From: Candidatus Peregrinibacteria bacterium CG_4_10_14_0_2_um_filter_38_24
Lineage (GTDB): Bacteria > Patescibacteriota > Gracilibacteria > UBA1369 > LOWO2-01-FULL-3
Assembly: GCA_002792535.1 (NCBI GenBank)
Contig: PFOM01000040.1
Span: 1 to 54,880, forward strand
Length of the DNA stretch: 54,880 bases
Direction of reading: 5' to 3'
A program made the translations under genes and the position numbers. A model generated the notes under the pieces. That model saw only the letters and a list, made by a program, of their open reading frames with translations, ran no database searches and had not been told where the DNA came from. Below are positions 43,047 through 54,880 of this stretch, piece after piece (positions within the stretch are counted from its first letter, which is position 1; each line of letters opens with the position of its first letter).

Positions 43047-43304
43047 AATATTTTATAGATAACCTGAAAAAGCCTTACGGCTCACCTGTCCAAATTACCA
43101 CTACCTTTTAAAAAATGCAAGAAAATTTTCAAGATATCAATAAACAAAATTTCGATACACACCCATGCTGTTAAAAAATACAAAAAGCCAAAAACACGAG
43201 TTTTATTACACGTCACATTTTAAGAATTCGCTACTCGAAAAAGTTAAAATTTTGGCTTGTGCCTGCTATTATTCGAGCATAAATATCTTCTAAAAATCAC
43301 TCCT

Positions 43305-44567
43305 ATGCATAATACAATCACAACTGATGGCAGGCAAAATATGGCAGTCATAAGCCCGATTTGGCAAAATCCCGCACCGGTATCAAGGCCATGCGGCAGT
43401 GAAAGTGTCCAGCTCTCGAAAACCTCATCTATGAGCCAAAATCTTCAGTCCATGCCCGACAAAAACTTATACAATCTCTGCAAAACCCACGGCGAGCGCG
43501 CCCGAATCTGGCGACAACGATTCGCGGGACTGCTTCCCGAAGTCTTCAAACGCAAATTATACGAGAAGAAAGGCTTTATTTCGATTTTTGAATTTTCAAA
43601 AAAACTGGCGGGACTAAGCGAAGAACAGGTCAGACTTGTTCTAAATCTCGAAAAAAGATTCGAAACAATGCCAGCCCTGAAAACCTTACTCACAAGCGGA
43701 AAAGTGAGCGTGAACAAACTTTCCCGAATCGTCTCGATCGCAACCCACAAAAATGAAATGTTTTTGGCGACTCAAGTCCAAGTCCTATCAAAAAACGCCG
43801 TGGAAACTTTGGTTAGGGATGAAAAATTTGCGACGGGGAATTATGGCAAAAATGAAACAAAAAATATGAATTTTGCGAATAGAAACAGTGATAGAATCGA
43901 CGAAAATTCCATCTCAAATCCTGCCAATTTTTCCACAGCGAATGGCTCACAAAAGCCGCTTTTTGCCCCAAAAAGTCTGCCCGGGCAGATGTGTTTTGAC
44001 ACAAAAAATGAAAAAAGCAATGAACAAAATTATCCAAAAATCATTTTCGGAAATGAAAAAATAACCGACAAAAAAACAGAATTTGAAACATTGGAAATTT
44101 CTCCGGAAGTGCGGAAAAAACTTCTCGAACTCCAGCAAAAAGGCCTCGACATAAACGCAATCATCCTCGAATCCCTCCAAAAACGCGAACAAGAAATCGC
44201 GCAGAGGAAAGCCGAAATCGGGGGAAACCTTGCGCGAAAATCGGAAAAAATGGCACAGAAAAAATCTCCTTCCCGCCATATCCCCATCTCCATAAAACGC
44301 ATCCTTTACGCCGAACATGGCACAAAATGTTCCGCCCCAAACTGCCAAAAACCTTCGGAACAAATCCACCACATCCAAAGATTTTCCGCACTACCAGGCC
44401 ACAATCCGCACTCCCTCGCCCCGCTTTGCAAAGCCCACCACGAACTCATGCATTGCGGGGATCTTGACTATTTGGAGATTCGAAAAAAAAGTATGTTAAA
44501 GTCACATGAGCATCTTACAGGGGAGTCCTTCACCGCGAACCCACCCACACCTAAAGAAATACCTTAA
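43305..44567 (+). CDS. HNH endonuclease domain protein
   Basis: 420 residues from the ATG at 43305; an upstream TTG is less likely. An N-terminal helical region (KRKLYEKKGFISIFEFSKKL, AGLSEEQVRLVLNLEKRF) resembles the DUF222-like helical part seen in many HNH proteins. A long polar middle stretch follows, then a C-terminal HNH domain: KCSAPNCQKPSEQIHHIQRF followed by LAPLCKAHHELMH, with paired cysteines and the His-His/His motif. Such proteins are common near mobile elements and may cut DNA, but the target is unknown. The nucleotide composition is richer in GC than its neighbours by eye, which may mean transfer. Confidence 0.82.
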   Translation: MHNTITTDGRQNMAVISPIWQNPAPVSRPCGSESVQLSKTSSMSQNLQSMPDKNLYNLCKTHGERARIWRQRFAGLLPEVFKRKLYEKKGFISIFEFSKKLAGLSEEQVRLVLNLEKRFETMPALKTLLTSGKVSVNKLSRIVSIATHKNEMFLATQVQVLSKNAVETLVRDEKFATGNYGKNETKNMNFANRNSDRIDENSISNPANFSTANGSQKPLFAPKSLPGQMCFDTKNEKSNEQNYPKIIFGNEKITDKKTEFETLEISPEVRKKLLELQQKGLDINAIILESLQKREQEIAQRKAEIGGNLARKSEKMAQKKSPSRHIPISIKRILYAEHGTKCSAPNCQKPSEQIHHIQRFSALPGHNPHSLAPLCKAHHELMHCGDLDYLEIRKKSMLKSHEHLTGESFTANPPTPKEIP

Positions 44568-44731: not shown

Positions 44732-45805
44732 ATGTCAAAACAAAATTTAAAACACGGGAAAAATCTGTGCAAACCAATACGAAAATTGATAATCGCAGAT
44801 AGGCCTGCAGTCTCACAGGAATCGACAACCGTATTGCGGACAACCGTATTGCAATACGCCTTGCAGTTTATCTTCGTACTCGGACTCATGAGCGTTGCGC
44901 TTGGAATATTTGCATTTTTGACGAATTCAGGTCTAGCACATGCGGCGTCACTTCTACCTGTCCCGACTGAATACGACAAATATAACATTCCTCAAGCCCC
45001 AAAGAAATCAGGTCAGCTCATCATAGTCGATCTTGTAATGGGCGCTTTGTCTTACGTAAAAGTACTCGTCGGAGTCGGAGGGATAGCGATGCTGGTTTAC
45101 CTTGGGTATGAATTGGTTCTCTCCTCGGGGGACGAAGAAAGCGTAACCAAAGTAAAAAAAGCATTCACTTACACCTTGGTTTCATTTGTAATAGTCAGTA
45201 TGTCTCAGGACTTGGCGAAAATATTCGACATGTCTCAGGGAACAGTCTTGGGAAACGCTTCGGAAATTTCAAATAGAGTGAAGCTTTTTGACAAACAGGT
45301 CGAAATCTTTATGACTTTTATAAAATACGTGATTGGAGCCTACGCGATGATAATGGCGGTAAAACATGGAATAAAATTCATAACGGCGGGAGGAGACGAG
45401 GAAGCTGTAAAAAAATCAAGAAGCGGGCTTATGTACAGCATCGGAGGCTTGCTTCTGATTTACGTCGGAGACATATTTATAAACAAAGTTTTCTACAATG
45501 TCAGCAATGTTTATTCCGGAGTAAACGGAGTTCACCCGATGGTAAACGTAAAAACCGGAATTGCCCAAATCGCCGGAATTATAAATTTTCTAATGTATTT
45601 CATCGGACCGGCGGCATTTGTTATGCTTATAGTCTCAGCAATAATGTATTTGAGCTCCGGAGGTGAAGAAGAAAAAACGAAAAAAGCAAAAAATATACTT
45701 ATAGCAACAATAATCGGAATTGTAATAATTTACGGCGCTTTTGCGCTTGTAAGTACGGTTTTATCAAGCCAGCTTGCGAGTTTTGGTGCCATAGCCAACG
45801 AATAA
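44732..45805 (+). CDS. Triple VirB2-like membrane protein 1
   Basis: 357 residues. N-terminal cytoplasmic tail and one hydrophobic segment with a possible cleavage site (SGLAHA), then three copies of a two-helix module. Each has a helix, a G(G/S)-(D/E)-E-E-x-x-x-K-x-K/R loop and a second helix: SSGDEESVTKVKKAF, TAGGDEEAVKKSRSGLMYS and SSGGEEEKTKKAKNILIATI. This resembles the TrbC/VirB2 pilin family, whose usual subunit has one such module. Three fused modules suggest a fixed membrane scaffold rather than a polymerising pilin (inference). First gene after a good promoter, four bases before the next. Confidence 0.75.
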   Translation: MSKQNLKHGKNLCKPIRKLIIADRPAVSQESTTVLRTTVLQYALQFIFVLGLMSVALGIFAFLTNSGLAHAASLLPVPTEYDKYNIPQAPKKSGQLIIVDLVMGALSYVKVLVGVGGIAMLVYLGYELVLSSGDEESVTKVKKAFTYTLVSFVIVSMSQDLAKIFDMSQGTVLGNASEISNRVKLFDKQVEIFMTFIKYVIGAYAMIMAVKHGIKFITAGGDEEAVKKSRSGLMYSIGGLLLIYVGDIFINKVFYNVSNVYSGVNGVHPMVNVKTGIAQIAGIINFLMYFIGPAAFVMLIVSAIMYLSSGGEEEKTKKAKNILIATIIGIVIIYGAFALVSTVLSSQLASFGAIANE

Positions 45806-45809
45806 ATAT

Positions 45810-46814
45810 ATGAAAAAATTTATAAAATCATTTTTAGTCTCATTTCTGCTCATGAATCTTGGGCTTACAATTTATGCCTTTGCGACATTTGGAGGGGTTT
45901 CACATAAAGCATTTGCGATAAATCCGCTTCAGAAAATACAAGAAGTTGGTGAACCGACAAAGCTACCTGGCTTTATAACAGGCCAGCATCCCGAAGCTCC
46001 TGCGGATTATTCACAGCCGGGAGTGGGAACGCTTACGAGTCCTGTGTTTTTCGCACTTGATATGGCGAAATTAGCTCTTAGCGGAATCGCAATGATTATC
46101 ATAGTCATTGCCGCGATAAAACTGATTTCAACGACAAATGAAGAAGCCGCGGGAAAAGCAAAAAGAACACTCATTTACTCAATAATGGGAATGATCTTGA
46201 TTCAGCTTGCGGATACAATCGTAAGAAAAATGTTCTTTGGAGAATTGGGAGACGCATTTGAAAATATAGCCGTCACAAAATTATATGCGGAACAATCCGT
46301 CGGACAGGTAAGAAACATAATAGGTATGGCAGAGGCATTCCTTGGAATCGCGGCCGTACTCGTAATCATAGTTCGTGGATTCACGGTAATGGTTAGCGGA
46401 GGAAACGAAGAAGAACTTGGCAAAGCGAAAAAACATCTGATGTACGCTGTCGCCGGACTTTTTGTAATCATACTTTCTGAAGTTATAATTCGTGGAGTTG
46501 TCTTCCCGGAAAACGGAGAAGCTATGCCGGATCCTGAAATTGCAAAATTCATAATAGTAAAAATAGTAAATTACGTTGTTGGATTTATATCCATAATTGC
46601 ATTTGTTTCGCTCTTTTATTCGGGATATCTATATGTCACATCTGCCGGAAACGAAGAGGCGACAGCAAAAGTAAAAAAGATATTCACAGCGTCGGTTATC
46701 GCTATAGTCCTTGCGCTCGGCTCATTTGCAATTGTAAATACATTGATAAAATTCACACCATACTATGGAGCAGAGCAGGTGGCACCCGGAACCACGCCTC
46801 CTCCGGCAAAATAA
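45810..46814 (+). CDS. Triple VirB2-like membrane protein 2
   Basis: 334 residues, same design as the preceding gene. Signal-anchor at the N-terminus, then three modules with the loops STTNEEAAGKAKRTLIYSI, VSGGNEEELGKAKKHLMYAV and TSAGNEEATAKVKKIFTASV. Loop sequence, spacing and helix pairs are alike, so the two genes come from duplication. The end is Pro/Gly-rich (VAPGTTPPPAK). Its stop is 60 bases before the giant PKD protein. No ATPase of the VirB4/VirB11 kind is visible in the window. Confidence 0.75.
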   Translation: MKKFIKSFLVSFLLMNLGLTIYAFATFGGVSHKAFAINPLQKIQEVGEPTKLPGFITGQHPEAPADYSQPGVGTLTSPVFFALDMAKLALSGIAMIIIVIAAIKLISTTNEEAAGKAKRTLIYSIMGMILIQLADTIVRKMFFGELGDAFENIAVTKLYAEQSVGQVRNIIGMAEAFLGIAAVLVIIVRGFTVMVSGGNEEELGKAKKHLMYAVAGLFVIILSEVIIRGVVFPENGEAMPDPEIAKFIIVKIVNYVVGFISIIAFVSLFYSGYLYVTSAGNEEATAKVKKIFTASVIAIVLALGSFAIVNTLIKFTPYYGAEQVAPGTTPPPAK

Positions 46815-46875
46815 AAAATAATACATTGCTATAAACGTTCAAAAAAAATATAATTAAGCAAAGTGCCTCAACACT

Positions 46876-49800
46876 ATGAAAAACAGAATAAATAAAATAA
46901 TAAAAATTGCCCTAATCCTAGGGATTTTTACAACGATACTATCAACTCATATATTTGTTGCATCAGCGGATTGGTACGATAATCTGAAAAATGATGCAAA
47001 AAAACTTTTCACCACAACTGAACAGGGGCAGGATTTTTCGCAGTTCAAGCCGGGGGACAGCCTTGCATTAGGGAAAGAAGGAATTAACACATCTCTTACA
47101 CAATCCAGTGATGTTCGTGAATTCGTTATAAAAATCGTGAATTTCGCACTTGGATTCTTGGGACTAATTGCTGTGTTGATTGTAATATATGGAGGTGTCC
47201 TTTATTTGACAGCCGGAGGGCAGGAAGAAAACACGGGCAAAGCCAAGAAAGCGATAGGATACGCGGTAATAGGACTGATAATAGTTGTTGGATCTTTCGC
47301 ATTTGTAAACACAGTAATAAAAGGAATTGGAGGAGGAGGAACAGGAACAGGAGGAACAAAAGTCGTAGGCTCAAACTATGGAAACAGCTTTAACGCCTCC
47401 GCAATCCAAGTGCAAAGTGTAGCTCAAGAAATTTATTCGAATTTTCTACTTTTCGGACAGAGTGCCGAGGAAATAAAAGGAATTGTAAATGATGCGAACA
47501 AAGATTCTTTAAATTATTCAAAAACACTCGTTTCCAGACAAGATGTTTTAAATTTCCTATTCAGCGAGAAGGAAAAAATTTCAAATGTAAGGGGAAGAAT
47601 CCCTCAATTCTCGGCGGCATATATTCAGACAAATACAATCATAAACAACATTGAATCCCAGACAGACGCAATAAAAGTCATGCCTGAAATGTTGGTAAAA
47701 TACGAGCAAGTCGCAGGCACAGTCGGCGACTGTATGGCTCCGGCAACGGACAATTGCATAACCTATCCGAAAGAACTTTATGCAAAGTGGACGGAAATAA
47801 AGACAGACATAATCGCTCCCGAAAATAGTCTTACAAAACTTTTCACTGCAATAAAAACTGATTATTTGGACAGACTGAAAAATGAATACATGCCGAAGAT
47901 TTACGACATGAAACAAATTTATGCAGGCACTGGTTCAACAGCCGATGCTGGATCAGACCTAAAGAAATTATTTGACGACATGATCCTTAATTACGGATAT
48001 AACCCTGCAAATACAAGTACTTTTACTCCGGAATCATTCCTTGGCAAGATAAATTCATGGAGCATTGCCGCTTCGTCAGACGCGGATATTAGCGCAACGG
48101 CGCAACTCCTTATAAAGGTATTAAAAATCCAAATCGCATTCTCTGAAGGACTTAAGTCTATCCAAAGCGTAGAAGCTCATTTGAGCGCAAATGTCGTGGA
48201 AGGAAGCAGTCCATTGGTCGTGACTTTCAATGTCCTTGATTCTCAAGATCCCGCTGGAGGAAGCATCGTTGACACAAGTATAGATTGGAAAAATATTGAT
48301 GGATCAAAATCTTTCACGGGAAAGGCTGTCGAGGTTTCAGCCGCAGTTGTTTGTACGGCGCCGAAGGAAAAAGAACTCTACGGTCCTGCTTACAGACAAT
48401 GTACATACAAATATCCGGGCACATACGCCGCAACCGTCACAATAAAATCAAACGACCCTTCTAAATATATTCCGGGAATGAGCACTCTTATAATAAAAGT
48501 AAATCCACCTACGACAAAAATAGATTTACAAATGGCCATTCAAGGAAAAACGATTCCTATAATGTCATATTATGAAAATGGAATTTTGAAAAACGATAGA
48601 GATATTATTGGAGTAACATTAAACGAGGCAAAGCAAGGAATAGTCTTGGATGCTTCAAAAACTATTAATGTAGAAAATTTCAAATGGAGTTTTGGTTCAG
48701 GCAAAGCTTCGGGCACGGGGGATAGCTCTGTTGACACAGACAAAACCGGACAACAAACAGTCACCTTCGACTCCGAAGGGAAAAACGTAATAAGACTCGA
48801 TGTAATGAGCAAGCTCGGAGAGTTGGACAGCAAATCTTTTGTTTTGGAGATAAGAAATGTTGCCGCAAGAATACAAGTTTCCCCAAATGAAAATATATTT
48901 ATAAACAGACCTACTATAATAGACGGAACTCTTTCGTCAGCCACTTCCGGAAAAATAAAATCATATGAATGGAGTATCTCAAAAACATCCGGAGAAATAG
49001 AAGAGATAGACCTCGGAACAAATGTAAACAAAAACTCTTTTATTCACAATTTCGAAAAACCGGGAAAATATAAAATAAGTTTGAAAGTGACTAGCGATCT
49101 TGAAACAGTCGAAGCCGAGCCATATACATTGACGGTGGAATCACAAGTCCCAAAAGCGATTTATGAATATTCACTTCCGGACAAGACCCAGCCATCCACG
49201 GTAAATTTCAACGCTTCGAAGAGTTTTGATCCGGATGGTTCAAATCCATTCCTTGTTTACAGCTGGAGCATCACTCCGGATTCGAAAGCCGGAGACAATT
49301 GGGTTTTCTTAAACGGAAGCACCGCAACAGACAAAAATCCAACTATTAAATTCAGAAAAAAAGACGATTACAAAGTGACTTTACGAGTCTCGGATTCGAG
49401 CACTGTTGGATCGGGATTAAAAGAAGAGTACACGGAAACGACAAGAACGGTATCAATTCAAGATGTATTAGATATAGCTTGGGGAAGTTCTCAGGCTACA
49501 ACGGCGGTCGTGGATGCGGACGGAAAAGCCACTGTGAATTTCATTCTTGCTAGTGAAAACTCAATCGCTTACGAAATAAAATTCGGCGACGGCGACGTCA
49601 GCACAGGGGATATCAGCAAGTCAAAAACAATCCCTCATACATATATGAATCCGGGGAAATATGATGTAAAAGCCACTGTCTACGACGACAACGACAACGA
49701 CAATTCAATCACAAAGAAAATTTTTATAGGAGGAGGCGACAAGCCTATCGCAAAAATGACGGTTTTTGTAAACGGAGTTGAAATCACAGATTTATCGGAC

Positions 49801-51732
49801 GAAATAAACGCCTCAAAAGGCAATGTCATAACATTTGACGCGAGCGACTCGAAAAATACGGACGGAACAGGAAGAAATCTAAAATACAGTTGGGATTTTG
49901 GAGACACATACAAAAGCTCAAACAAATCGGTTACACATATATATAAGGAGTTAAGTCCAAAAGATCCGGGGTATTTCACGGTGAAATTGAAAATATACGA
50001 CAAGGACTCTACTGAAAAAGAGGCAACCGATGAAATCAAAATGAAAATCACAAACAAACCTCCAACTTTTTCTTCCATGGAGGCCGTACCTGATGCCTCA
50101 AACAAAGACATGGTTACTCCGGTAAAAGTTGACTTGAAAGCTTACGGAGCGGAAGACAAAGACGGAACAATTTCTCAATTCAGATGGTGGTATTTTGATG
50201 TTGATGATCCGGAAGAACCGCTTGGTTTACAAACGACGAAGAATTCGTCGACAAAAATGGTAATAGGTACAAATGGTAAAGAAGGAAAAGAAGTTGAGTA
50301 TGGATTCGGACTTGAACTAATTGATAATGATAACGCAAAAACTTTAAGCGAAGACGTTTTGACAGAGGAACAAATACCGACATTGAAAGTGAAAAATGGG
50401 CCAAACGAGCCTCCTGTTGGAAAATTCAAACTAAGTGCCTCAAAAGTTTTCACAGCTGATAAAATCGTATTTACAAGCGTTTCGACAGATTCGGATGGAG
50501 AAATAGTTTCATATATTTGGGACTTCGAAGGCGATGGATTCTTCAATAACGCTCCGGTAAAAGAGTCGATTGTGGAACATACATATCCAACCAAAAACTT
50601 GAACGGTTATGATGTAAGATTAAAAGTAATCGATGACAAGGGAGGAGAAGCAGTTTCACCTCCTGTCAAAGTCTACGTAGACAGTCTTTCAAAACCTCCG
50701 AAAGCCGCATTCAAATACGCGGTAATGGATGGAAGTAACGGTAAAAAAGTTAAATTCACAAACAATTCAACAGCGGACGAAGGTACGGGCGCAACAATAA
50801 CAAAATATGTATGGGATTTTGACACAAACTCAAATCTTACAACTACAGATGCGGACGGTGATGGCAAAAAAGACAATGACACGGATTCGGAAGCAAAAGA
50901 TCCTGAAAGACTTTATTTGGAACAAGGAACATACACTGTAAAACTTACTGTCACGGACAGCAACGGGGCATCGAATTCAGTTATGAACTCGATGAAAATC
51001 CCTATGGCAAATCCGCCAAAAGCCGCATTTACAGCCACTGTTTTAGAAGACGGAGTTCATTTCAAAAATAACTCAACGGCTGACAAAGAAAAAGGTGCAA
51101 CAATAGAAAAAAACACATGGGATTTTGACGCGTTTGTCGATTCAGACGGAGACGGAATCAAAGACAATGACGCAGACTCAAGCGACAAAGAGCCTATCCG
51201 TTTTTACGAGAAGGCCGGCAAATACAAAATAAAATTAGTTGTAAAAGATAATCAAGGAAATTCTGATGAAGTCTCCAACGAAGTGAATACTTTGACAGGA
51301 GATTTCCTAAGCCCGGGCTTCAATTCGGGAGTCATCCCGGGCGGCCTAAATAGCGGCATAGAGGGCGAAGGTGGCTTAATAGGAGGAACGCCGGAAAGTA
51401 CATCCGGAACATCAAATGTAAAAGCAGTCCTTGAAACAACTCCAACCGTTGCAGAAGACGGAGTCCTTTATCTCACGGGAACTGCAGGCTCGGTTATATT
51501 TAATTTCTCAAATTCAGAAGGAAATATCGCAAGTTATTCAATAGATAAAAATATTTATTTTGACACTGACGGAAACGGGGTAAAGACGGACGACAACGAT
51601 TTCAAGACGCAGTTGCCGGGGACATGGAAGACAAATTTTGACAAATCATGGGGACCAACAGTCGTAAAATTAACAGTTATCGATATATATGGAAATATAA
51701 ACACGGTAACAAAAGAAATAAAATTTAAATAA
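46876..51732 (+). CDS. Giant VirB2-like/PKD-repeat surface protein
   Basis: 1618 residues. Signal or anchor segment at residues about 10-30; one VirB2-like module at about 70-155 (ALGFLGLIAVLIVIYGGVLY, TAGGQEENTGKAKKAIGYAV); a helical region to about 430. Then about ten PKD-like or Ig-like domains to about 1500, marked by FKWSFGSG, YEWSISK, YSWSITPDSK, YEIKFGDGD, YSWDFGDTYK, YIWDFEGDG, YVWDFDTNSN and NTWDFDAF. Acidic DxDxDG loops (DADGDGKKDND, DSDGDGIKDND) may bind calcium. PKD arrays make long extracellular stalks or adhesins. The same membrane module as in the two preceding genes implies joint assembly. Ten bases before the next gene. Confidence 0.8.
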   Translation: MKNRINKIIKIALILGIFTTILSTHIFVASADWYDNLKNDAKKLFTTTEQGQDFSQFKPGDSLALGKEGINTSLTQSSDVREFVIKIVNFALGFLGLIAVLIVIYGGVLYLTAGGQEENTGKAKKAIGYAVIGLIIVVGSFAFVNTVIKGIGGGGTGTGGTKVVGSNYGNSFNASAIQVQSVAQEIYSNFLLFGQSAEEIKGIVNDANKDSLNYSKTLVSRQDVLNFLFSEKEKISNVRGRIPQFSAAYIQTNTIINNIESQTDAIKVMPEMLVKYEQVAGTVGDCMAPATDNCITYPKELYAKWTEIKTDIIAPENSLTKLFTAIKTDYLDRLKNEYMPKIYDMKQIYAGTGSTADAGSDLKKLFDDMILNYGYNPANTSTFTPESFLGKINSWSIAASSDADISATAQLLIKVLKIQIAFSEGLKSIQSVEAHLSANVVEGSSPLVVTFNVLDSQDPAGGSIVDTSIDWKNIDGSKSFTGKAVEVSAAVVCTAPKEKELYGPAYRQCTYKYPGTYAATVTIKSNDPSKYIPGMSTLIIKVNPPTTKIDLQMAIQGKTIPIMSYYENGILKNDRDIIGVTLNEAKQGIVLDASKTINVENFKWSFGSGKASGTGDSSVDTDKTGQQTVTFDSEGKNVIRLDVMSKLGELDSKSFVLEIRNVAARIQVSPNENIFINRPTIIDGTLSSATSGKIKSYEWSISKTSGEIEEIDLGTNVNKNSFIHNFEKPGKYKISLKVTSDLETVEAEPYTLTVESQVPKAIYEYSLPDKTQPSTVNFNASKSFDPDGSNPFLVYSWSITPDSKAGDNWVFLNGSTATDKNPTIKFRKKDDYKVTLRVSDSSTVGSGLKEEYTETTRTVSIQDVLDIAWGSSQATTAVVDADGKATVNFILASENSIAYEIKFGDGDVSTGDISKSKTIPHTYMNPGKYDVKATVYDDNDNDNSITKKIFIGGGDKPIAKMTVFVNGVEITDLSDEINASKGNVITFDASDSKNTDGTGRNLKYSWDFGDTYKSSNKSVTHIYKELSPKDPGYFTVKLKIYDKDSTEKEATDEIKMKITNKPPTFSSMEAVPDASNKDMVTPVKVDLKAYGAEDKDGTISQFRWWYFDVDDPEEPLGLQTTKNSSTKMVIGTNGKEGKEVEYGFGLELIDNDNAKTLSEDVLTEEQIPTLKVKNGPNEPPVGKFKLSASKVFTADKIVFTSVSTDSDGEIVSYIWDFEGDGFFNNAPVKESIVEHTYPTKNLNGYDVRLKVIDDKGGEAVSPPVKVYVDSLSKPPKAAFKYAVMDGSNGKKVKFTNNSTADEGTGATITKYVWDFDTNSNLTTTDADGDGKKDNDTDSEAKDPERLYLEQGTYTVKLTVTDSNGASNSVMNSMKIPMANPPKAAFTATVLEDGVHFKNNSTADKEKGATIEKNTWDFDAFVDSDGDGIKDNDADSSDKEPIRFYEKAGKYKIKLVVKDNQGNSDEVSNEVNTLTGDFLSPGFNSGVIPGGLNSGIEGEGGLIGGTPESTSGTSNVKAVLETTPTVAEDGVLYLTGTAGSVIFNFSNSEGNIASYSIDKNIYFDTDGNGVKTDDNDFKTQLPGTWKTNFDKSWGPTVVKLTVIDIYGNINTVTKEIKFK

Positions 51733-51741
51733 AACTTACAT

Positions 51742-53928
51742 ATGGAAAACAACAACGAAAACACAAATGATATAAAAGTGAACACTTACGGAAACGAGCC
51801 AAATAACAATGTCCCAAAAATGGATCAAGAAAAAGTTGAGCCGGAAAAACAAACAATCGGCCAAGTAAAAAACAATGTTGATCCGACAGCAAAACCTCCA
51901 TTGGATCCGACTGCAAGAAGAAAAGCGATCAAAAAAGTGCTTTTGGTTTTAGGAATAGTCGGTGCTGTCATTGTCGCGGCAAGTCTTTTCGTGGTATCCC
52001 AAGTGGATATAGACGGAAACAACGTAATAGCTCAAACGCTCGGCCTAAACAGCCTCGCGTTCACAAATATTATTAGCACTATAGTACATATAATTTTCAT
52101 GTTGTTTTCTCTAGTGATGGTTGTATTTATTCTAAGAAGTTTTATGGCGGTGAACAGAGTTCCAAAAGAAGATCCGATCGGGCGCAAAGCCGCGCTAAAA
52201 CCTTTGATCATTCGTGGAGTTATTCTATTTTTACTCATGGTTGTATGGGTCGCCGCATTCGTTTTTGTTGAAATGAACAGATCGCTCGTAACAAAATACT
52301 TGCAAAATCCTATCGTAACTCTGCCGGCACAGACATTAAATCTTACCGCTCCGGTAGAAGTGAAATTCGACGCATCACACGCGCCGGTTGATAGAGCTAT
52401 TTTTCAGGTAATTTCTTACGATTGGGATTTCGGTGACGGAAAAACCGGAACAAGCCAAGTCGTGACGCACAAATATGAAAGAAAAGGCAGATTCGACGTG
52501 GTTTTGGCGATTACAAAACGAAACAAAACAACGAGCGAAGAATCAAAAGACACATATGCAATCACAGTAGTAATAGATAAGCAGGCATTAAGCGCAGTAG
52601 TAAAAGCAGACAAAGAAAGCGGAGCCGTTCCACTCGAAGTAAGTTTCGACGGATCGGATTCTGTAAATCCTGACGGTACAATAAGTAAATATGAATGGGA
52701 TTTTAACGGCGACGGAAAAATAGATGCCACAGGAGAAACCGCAAAACACACTTTTGAAAAAGCTGGACGCTATAAAGTTTCATTAAAAATAACTTCAGCA
52801 ACAGGCGACACGGCGGTCGGAGAAAAAGAAATCATGGCCGGAGAATCTGATGTTACTGCGGCAATAAGCATTCTAAACGAACCGACGGAATTCCTGAAAG
52901 ACAATTCATACATTTTCAAGGGAGACAAATCGGCTTCAAAAAACAGCACAATTGAAAAATACGAATGGGATTTTGGTGATGGCACAAAACCTGACACAGG
53001 AAAAACAATTTCCCATACATTTAAAAAAGAAGGAACATTTGAAATTTTACTAACAGTCACAGACAAAAACGGAAGCGAAGGAGAAGTCAAAAAAATCATA
53101 AATATAGGAACTCCAAAAGGAAATCCAAAAGCGATAATTATAACTGATCCGGTCATGAAAGAAGGGGATTTGGCGATTTCCGGAAAACTACCGTTCACCG
53201 TAATTTTTGATGGAGGATCCAGCGCAGACAGCGACCAAAATATAGTTGATTACAAATGGGATTTTAACAACGACGGAAAATATGAAGGTTTCGGAAAAAA
53301 CATTTCACACATATTTACAGAAGAGGGAACATACACTGTGACTTTGGAAGTGGAAGACGCGGACAGCAATATTTCAAAAGCAACTGCGGCAGTAAAAGTG
53401 CTTGCACAAGGCATACAAGCCAGCTTGAAAGCTGACAAAGTCGAAGGCACTGCACCATTGATCGTATCATTCGACTCCAGTGGATCGACTTATAAAAACG
53501 GAAAAATCACAAGTTACAAATGGGAATTCGGAGACAATACTGCTCCAAAATTATCGACAGCTTCAATCACGCACAAATATTCGGCAGTCGGAACATACTC
53601 CGCAAAAGTGACGATAATAGGTGCGGACAATTCATCCGACATGGCAGAGCTAACGATCACAGTTAGAGAGACACCGCTCACAGCATGTTTCACTACAAAT
53701 TTCAAAGAGGGGCAAGCTCCTTTAGACGTAATATTTGACCCTGCATGTTCGACCGGAACAGCCGCAAATTACTATTGGGACTTCGGAGACTCCGCTTCGT
53801 CTACAGATGTTAAGCCTACTCACTCTTTCACAAAAGAAGGCACATACAAGGTAGAGCTTCAAATCACGGATGTTGACAATACTGTAAGTTCATTCGATAC
53901 TGAAATCAAAGTTTTGCAAAAACAATAA
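51742..53928 (+). CDS. Three-TM protein with six PKD domains
   Basis: 728 residues. Polar Asn/Glu/Lys-rich N-terminus (about 1-65), three membrane segments (VLLVLGIVGAVIVAASLFVV, ISTIVHIIFMLFSLVMVVFI, IIRGVILFLLMVVWVAAFVF), then six PKD domains to the C-terminus with YDWDFGDGK, YEWDFNGDGK, YEWDFGDGT, YKWDFNNDGK, YKWEFGDN and YYWDFGDS. Each has the PKD HxFxxxGxYxVxLxV ending. Topology would put the PKD array outside. Likely a partner of the giant PKD protein. Confidence 0.8.
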   Translation: MENNNENTNDIKVNTYGNEPNNNVPKMDQEKVEPEKQTIGQVKNNVDPTAKPPLDPTARRKAIKKVLLVLGIVGAVIVAASLFVVSQVDIDGNNVIAQTLGLNSLAFTNIISTIVHIIFMLFSLVMVVFILRSFMAVNRVPKEDPIGRKAALKPLIIRGVILFLLMVVWVAAFVFVEMNRSLVTKYLQNPIVTLPAQTLNLTAPVEVKFDASHAPVDRAIFQVISYDWDFGDGKTGTSQVVTHKYERKGRFDVVLAITKRNKTTSEESKDTYAITVVIDKQALSAVVKADKESGAVPLEVSFDGSDSVNPDGTISKYEWDFNGDGKIDATGETAKHTFEKAGRYKVSLKITSATGDTAVGEKEIMAGESDVTAAISILNEPTEFLKDNSYIFKGDKSASKNSTIEKYEWDFGDGTKPDTGKTISHTFKKEGTFEILLTVTDKNGSEGEVKKIINIGTPKGNPKAIIITDPVMKEGDLAISGKLPFTVIFDGGSSADSDQNIVDYKWDFNNDGKYEGFGKNISHIFTEEGTYTVTLEVEDADSNISKATAAVKVLAQGIQASLKADKVEGTAPLIVSFDSSGSTYKNGKITSYKWEFGDNTAPKLSTASITHKYSAVGTYSAKVTIIGADNSSDMAELTITVRETPLTACFTTNFKEGQAPLDVIFDPACSTGTAANYYWDFGDSASSTDVKPTHSFTKEGTYKVELQITDVDNTVSSFDTEIKVLQKQ

Positions 53929-53956
53929 CTTATAAAATTTCTAACCTCTCCATCAT

Positions 53957-54880
53957 ATGAATAAGAAAGCACTCATTACTTTACTGTTAGTAATAATCGT
54001 TGCTCTTGGCGGCGGACTTTATTACAGACAATACTTAGACGAAAACGAAGCGCCTCCTTCCATACAGGCCACGGGAACCTATCAAGGGCTAACATCAGCG
54101 AAGCCGACAGGTTTCTTGAAAGCCGGCAAATCACAACTTGGCAAGGCTTTTGAATCGACAAAAGGGGATGGTGAAGAGAAAGCTTCTTTGAAAGTGGAAA
54201 AAGATTCAGGTGGACTTTCAGATGTTTATTCTGAAGACGACACAGACTTCAGTGAAGTAATGGAAAATTTCAAAGCTTCAAAGACCGGACAAGAATACAT
54301 GGTCGGATTTTACGACAATAACGACACGGAATGGAAAACGACAAAACAAAAATACTATGGGACAAAAGGAATATCCGTAATCTCAGATGAGGAGGATCTT
54401 GTTGATACGGAAATTCCTGCGAATAACGCATTTGTTTTTGTTTCAAACGAAAACAGCGAACTTTATGGATATAAAGATACTTCCGAAGAACCAAGCGAAA
54501 GCTATGATTTCTGTCGAGACGGGAAAGAAGGATGGACTGCCGGAGTTGTCATGGAGGATGAACTTTATGACTCTCTTGCCGACTGTTTGGACAGCGTAAC
54601 ATCGGTTTGGGTGAAAGTAAGAAACGAACCTTTAAACGATAAATTCAAAAAAATTTACACAGCGGGCAAAAGCGACAGCGCCCTCAAGAAATACGAAATG
54701 AAAAAATTCTACATGGCTTGGGTAAAATTTTCTGAAGACCCTGTCATAGCAGAGGAGGAAGAAACTCCTGCAAAAGATACAACAGTAAGACCTGAACTAA
54801 AAGACCTAAAAGTCATATCTGACTCAAAAGATTTGGGCAAAGGAAAAGTTGTATTGGACGACAAAGGAATCCCTGCAAAA
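53957..54880 (+). CDS. Single-anchor protein of unknown function (runs off the right edge)
   Basis: 308 residues are visible and the frame is open at the last base; no stop occurs in the window. The ATG at 53957 is followed by MNKKALITLLLVIIVALGGG, a signal-anchor, then an extracellular-looking acidic region. Segments include FDFCRDGKEG-like SYDFCRDGKEGWTAGVV and a cysteine pair about 30 residues apart. It follows the PKD gene by 28 bases on the same strand and probably belongs to the same operon. No family recognised. Confidence 0.65.
   Translation, partial: MNKKALITLLLVIIVALGGGLYYRQYLDENEAPPSIQATGTYQGLTSAKPTGFLKAGKSQLGKAFESTKGDGEEKASLKVEKDSGGLSDVYSEDDTDFSEVMENFKASKTGQEYMVGFYDNNDTEWKTTKQKYYGTKGISVISDEEDLVDTEIPANNAFVFVSNENSELYGYKDTSEEPSESYDFCRDGKEGWTAGVVMEDELYDSLADCLDSVTSVWVKVRNEPLNDKFKKIYTAGKSDSALKKYEMKKFYMAWVKFSEDPVIAEEEETPAKDTTVRPELKDLKVISDSKDLGKGKVVLDDKGIPAK

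Follow-up and report, generated by a model that had tools for sequence, protein, structure and literature searches.

We identified, in a genome of Candidatus Peregrinibacteria/Peribacteria (Patescibacteria), four adjacent genes (A–D) in which seven T4SS pilin modules are fused as three, three and one within A, B and C, and in which C and D carry arrays of PKD domains. The A-B-C-D set is old, strictly conserved and order-wide, not local, and what it encodes is a fixed assembly for which parts of T4SS pilins were used, rather than a random repeat. That its products assemble together, couple to a T4SS and contact a host is what we infer from it. The genome is 1.10 Mb long and 98.5% complete, and the window, i.e. 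the whole stretch of 54,880 nucleotides that was analysed, is its entire contig C3. Genes A–E run in one direction with open reading frames and intergenic gaps of 4, 61, 9 and 28 bases, and they lie where a first-pass annotation of the same DNA had placed them (Table 1). The contig stops inside gene E, which is the right edge of the window, so the readable locus stops there.

Table 1. Positions of the genes, pilin modules and PKD regions of the cassette in the window
Feature	Position	Strand	Description
Gene A	44732..45805	+	357 aa; hydrophobic N-terminus, then three T4SS_pilin modules; PF18895 E=6e-19, 3 stretches
Module A1	45023..45241	+	Residues 98-170; HMM built here, 1.4e-21
Module A2	45287..45502	+	Residues 186-257; HMM built here
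Module A3	45563..45772	+	Residues 278-347; apolar, pilin-like
Gene B	45810..46814	+	334 aa; signal-like N-terminus, three T4SS_pilin modules; PF18895 E=5.6e-20, 3 stretches
Module B1	46032..46244	+	Residues 75-145
Module B2	46302..46514	+	Residues 165-235
Module B3	46545..46754	+	Residues 246-315
Gene C	46876..51732	+	1618 aa; a signal-like N-terminus followed by one T4SS_pilin module, a helical stalk and 10 PKD-like domains
Module C1	47116..47331	+	PF18895 1.2e-7; HMM built here, 1.4e-28
Helical stalk of C	47380..48159	+	Residues 169-428; AlphaFold mostly pLDDT 70-95
Ten PKD-like domains of C	48172..51276	+	PKD model built here, 10 matches
Gene D	51742..53928	+	728 aa; three-TM base and six PKD domains; PKD_4 4.6e-90, 6 stretches
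TM2-loop-TM3 of D	52039..52275	+	Probable degenerate eighth pilin module; profile comparison
Six PKD domains of D	52312..53892	+	PKD model built here
Gene E	53957..54880	+	Exported one-TM protein, cut by contig end

A, B and C matched the Pfam family T4SS_pilin (PF18895) with 68.3, 71.6 and 32.2 bits, respectively, all above the curated cut-off of 26.6, which confirms the seven VirB2-like modules, split 3+3+1, that the first-pass annotation had counted. B also scored 45.8 bits, in 3 stretches, against the pilin-like conjugal protein model NF045849 (cut-off 40), and its profile, compared with CPR pilins of which some come from a VirB6-like/PrgI/VirB4 locus, gave an E-value of 1.2e-18 (Prob 99). 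Against TrbC/VirB2 (PF04956), the window proteins scored 17.7 bits at most, below the cut-off of 27.9; C and A matched it weakly (E 0.004 and 0.019, respectively). The Pfam matches of these proteins included no family of type IV pilins. The loop G-(D/N/E)-EE-x3-K-x-K had been described as always present; it is exact in 4 of the 7 modules, but A2 ends in K-x-R, B1 has T in place of G and C1 has Q, so that "always" was overstated. As single-module pilins elsewhere in the genome carry much the same loop, it is a signature of the family and is not peculiar to the cluster.

A search with B gave a match in all 60 relatives examined, 55 of them with long B matches. We examined the ORFs around these matches, and among the relatives with A, B and C all inside the stretch read, the module count was 3+3+1 in 39 out of 39 (11 families). 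A second collection of 18 loci, whose genomes overlap the first set, agrees with this count. In nearly all relatives the cassette adjoins nusG, mostly with secE, rplK and rplA; D follows C. Gene order is thus strongly conserved in relatives, and the lack of such conservation, one of the two refuting outcomes set beforehand, was not observed. Apparent loss of the cassette in two genomes (G017 and G026) was rejected, since their contigs end there, that of G026 within gene A.

When every module was compared with those of other genomes, the best match fell at the same position for 168 of 178 modules. This positional orthology rules out chance repeats or a recent duplication, and the seven modules are, judged by sequence, seven old lineages. 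Together with the constant count, it bears out the earlier claim of covalent triplets of fixed number and order. In more distant members of the class, the positional match was weaker for the inner modules and best for A3 and C1 (C1 in one case).

The positions also differ in their charges. Towards its outer end, helix 1 has a conserved basic residue in A1, A2 and B1 (84-92% of loci), and helix 2 a conserved acidic residue in A2, B1 and B2 (58-83% of loci); module A2 has the basic TM1 residue in 85% of loci and the acidic TM2 residue in 58%. A3, B3 and C1 have neither charge at the corresponding sites, so that in each triplet the inner two modules are charged and the last is plain and pilin-like. 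Such position-specific charges mean that the positions within A and B are non-equivalent, which fits a fixed assembly rather than a polymer of equal subunits.

The PKD model built here recovered 10 domains in C and 6 in D, in line with the first-pass counts of about ten and six, while Pfam by itself recovered 7 and 6. PKD_4 scored 183 bits in C and 296 bits in D, above cut-off and on exported proteins. The length of C ranged from 1367 to 1991 aa, with a median of 1643 (21 genomes). Exactly six PKD domains were present in 23 of the 23 D proteins read (12 families), and in the same kind of comparison between genomes 135 of 138 of these domains matched best to their positional counterpart. Adhesin repeat arrays are usually variable in copy number.

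The base of D has the three hydrophobic TM segments that had been claimed for it: a charged start, which lacks a typical signal peptide, is followed by one TM and then by a TM hairpin with a pilin-like loop. Comparison of the D profile with CPR pilins gave Prob 91.8 and an E-value of 7e-7, and in genomes without D the same profile made weak-score matches to single pilin genes. On the other hand, D had no Pfam match to T4SS_pilin, and HMM significance for this family was reached in a minority of D proteins. It is likely that the hairpin of D is an eighth, degenerate pilin module.

Other class families, too, have pairs of A and B triplets (G405, G396, G103, G284, G161, G219 and G240), while one genome (G372) has 4+4 modules and another (G276) a five-module protein. 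A five-module class relative scored 52.7 bits against PF04956, above its cut-off of 27.9. C and D co-occur, both being found in five class relatives. Three genomes (G103, G284 and G396) keep both A-B and C-D, though on separate contigs, whereas family f18 has A-B pairs in the loci read but no detected C or D. Thus, A-B is one unit and C-D another, and the two are joined as an operon in the taxonomic order to which the window belongs.

In other Patescibacteria, fused two- and four-module pilins are found within pilin arrays, and one of them adjoins PrgI and VirB4. The fused pilins observed include one of five modules (L135:8997-10376), three of four modules each (L136:3786-4880, L172:1292-2536 and L173:6669-7817) and a two-module pilin (L177:7164-7880) adjoining VirB6-like, PrgI and VirB4 genes. 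A putative VirB4 beside the four-module pilin of L136 proved to be GyrA. A single pilin module also stands at the head of proteins of about 620 to more than 3000 aa in other Patescibacteria. In loci L129-L134, from other Patescibacteria genomes, paired genes of about 620-850 aa and about 1900 to more than 3000 aa each have one N-terminal T4SS_pilin module, and the pairs repeatedly adjoin a small gene of about 150 aa that is YqeY/GatB-like by eye. By their predicted proteins, these pairs appear to be another conserved cassette of a pilin and a giant ectodomain.

The first-pass annotation had noted the absence of VirB4. None lies within the window, but the same genome encodes VirB4 (PF19044, contig C23) and PrgI (contig C14). 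On contig C38 (L011:439-4111) a PilT-like ATPase is followed by five sequence-divergent single-module T4SS pilins, and further single pilins are on contigs C37 and C19. A similar ATPase-pilin array was seen in locus L169. VirB4 was above cut-off in 53 of the 60 relatives, at tens to hundreds of kb from the cassette where both are on one contig: in G007, a genome in one contig, their positions are about 571 kb for the cassette and 787 kb for VirB4, and the two are also far apart in G015 and G054. No T4SS gene was found near the cassette. Since VirB4, PrgI and separate single pilins are encoded in the same genome, the cassette most likely works with a dispersed Patescibacteria T4SS. For S. epibionticum, T4SS pilins have been reported as essential (PMC10633639, PMC12857230).

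A, B and C have signal-like N-termini and charged loops between the module helices, and their sequences suggest a topology in which the hairpin loops would be cytoplasmic, and the linkers, the helical stalk and the PKD rods extracellular. As to the other refuting outcome set beforehand, a predicted structure that lacks a VirB2-like fold, AlphaFold modelled B as three helical hairpins, but with low confidence (mean pLDDT 57); residues 1-620 of C were modelled with a pLDDT of 67. Foldseek comparison of these two models with the PDB gave no match at E<=0.001, and when the PDB was searched by sequence, using B and CPR pilins as queries, all matches were to unrelated proteins.

We give about an even chance to a fixed membrane base of concatenated hairpins, bearing extracellular rods for host contact and probably acting with the dispersed T4SS. 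Each hairpin would span the membrane, its charged loop on the inner side and its ends on the outer. A and B would pack side by side in the cell membrane, and their non-equivalent hairpins would form a ring or plate that is fixed and does not grow. C and D would dock on it by the hairpins that they themselves carry, and their rods would reach out for tens of nanometres, a PKD domain being about 4 nm long; base and arms together would make contact with a host cell. For the dispersed T4SS, the cassette would most likely provide a contact collar or a specialised base of the pilus, and would not be the polymerising pilus itself. Of the two roles that the first-pass annotation had proposed, host attachment is plausible, as a role that we infer, while we found no evidence for DNA uptake.

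It is possible, if somewhat improbable, that the products form a surface adhesion complex independent of any T4SS, in which the pilin hairpins would be plain anchors and C and D PKD adhesins tethering the cell to a host or to neighbours. The cassette is unlinked to VirB4, as this would have it, and VirB4 was not found, despite a close query, in three nearly complete genomes that keep the cassette (G032, G043 and G052), although drafts can lose genes and assembly gaps could explain this. The single module that heads very large proteins in other Patescibacteria points the same way, as do the giant membrane proteins with PKD or adhesion domains reported in Vampirococcus (PMC8080830). However, a plain anchor would need neither two triplets with position-specific charges nor copy numbers that are fixed order-wide, and the A-B pair is kept where C and D were not detected.

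Perhaps, though we find it doubtful, A-B would be a previously unrecognised fixed membrane channel or assembly platform of concatenated VirB2-like hairpins that replaces VirB6 in the class, with C-D as an extracellular scaffold of set length docked on it, so that pilin parts would have been rebuilt into a non-polymerising host-contact machine. We regard as quite unlikely that A and B are the T4SS membrane platform of the class, a polytopic channel or pilus-assembly base of concatenated pilins standing in for an undetected VirB6. No VirB6 match (PF04610) was above cut-off in the 60 relatives, and VirB6 is reported as absent or extremely diverged in Gracilibacteria (PMC12102498); the occurrence of A-B pairs in several further families of the class and the conserved charges within membrane helices would also suit such a platform. 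However, A and B have no sequence similarity to VirB6 and no linkage to VirB4, and PF04610 remained below cut-off even for a likely VirB6 in a different Patescibacteria genome, an insensitivity that makes the apparent absence of VirB6 weak. It is very improbable that the fused proteins are normal subunits of a pilus, extruded into a polymer in blocks of several modules, C being the tip or a minor pilin with decoration. Although the modules are homologous to T4SS pilins and fused pilins do occur within the pilin arrays of other classes, the positions are strongly non-equivalent with charges in membrane helices, D retains its base of three TMs and lacks a typical signal peptide, and a separate array of five single pilins is already in the genome.

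Among the closest known systems are the T4SS_pilin family (PF18895) and the VirB2 arrays of the same phylum, which share the two-helix module and the loop motif with the cluster. The arrays comprise 2-11 pilin genes according to the main text of PMC12102498, whereas the modules of the cluster are chained 3+3+1, far from virB4, and one is joined to PKD domains; the essential array of S. epibionticum (PMC10633639) is one of these Patescibacteria arrays. VirB2/TrbC (PF04956) is a single-module polymerising subunit, unlike the window genes with 3, 3 and 1 modules, the last with PKD domains. The Mbov_0395 family of mycoplasma ICEs (NF045849), which B matched in its 3 stretches, is a single module of 80 residues with neither triplets nor PKD domains. 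PKD arrays on large exported membrane proteins, as in C and D, are known from the giant Patescibacteria membrane proteins (PMC8080830); in contrast to PKD-repeat surface proteins, D has a count fixed at six and a base of a pilin-type hairpin. Part of one PKD domain of D matched the CPR pilus protein PamR (NF058578) with 44 bits against a cut-off of 300, and identity with PamR was rejected, the match being to a generic PKD domain far below cut-off.

The main text of the Patescibacteria T4SS paper (PMC12102498) has no PKD, and we found no pilin concatemers described in that paper; a 2025 review does not mention PKD. In the main texts of the published open-licence papers searched, we came upon neither concatenated pilins nor fusions of pilins to PKD domains, nor any experiment on these genes. 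The earlier suggestion of an undescribed machine is thus supported in part: concatenation and PKD fusion are apparently without earlier description in that literature, but the modules are members of a pilin family already known from Patescibacteria, and the genome has T4SS genes.

How Patescibacteria grip and feed on their hosts is an open question on which the cassette bears. A T4SS is essential in the one Patescibacteria species tested, with its role unknown (PMC10633639, PMC11665869). The cassette offers defined genes, order-wide and with fixed module numbers, that link pilins of the T4SS with long rods at the surface. Pilins, it suggests, can evolve away from being interchangeable subunits of a polymer and become parts of fixed position, which makes questions on the T4SS base and on length control testable.

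Gene E had no family match above cut-off with Pfam and NCBI models. The genes 3′ of D differ among relatives, often encoding a long protein (about 300-1300 aa) with one TM and in some families being unrelated; given these variable equivalents, gene E may not be part of the set. Between secE and gene A, the window has an HNH-endonuclease-like ORF (43257-44567) that is absent from that place in the relatives read. Contig C38 (L011:6067-6519) carries a start very similar to that of this ORF, which suggests that it is a mobile or multicopy gene. In one relative (G038, L053:5820-6503), a 227-aa ORF on the opposite strand separates genes B and C.
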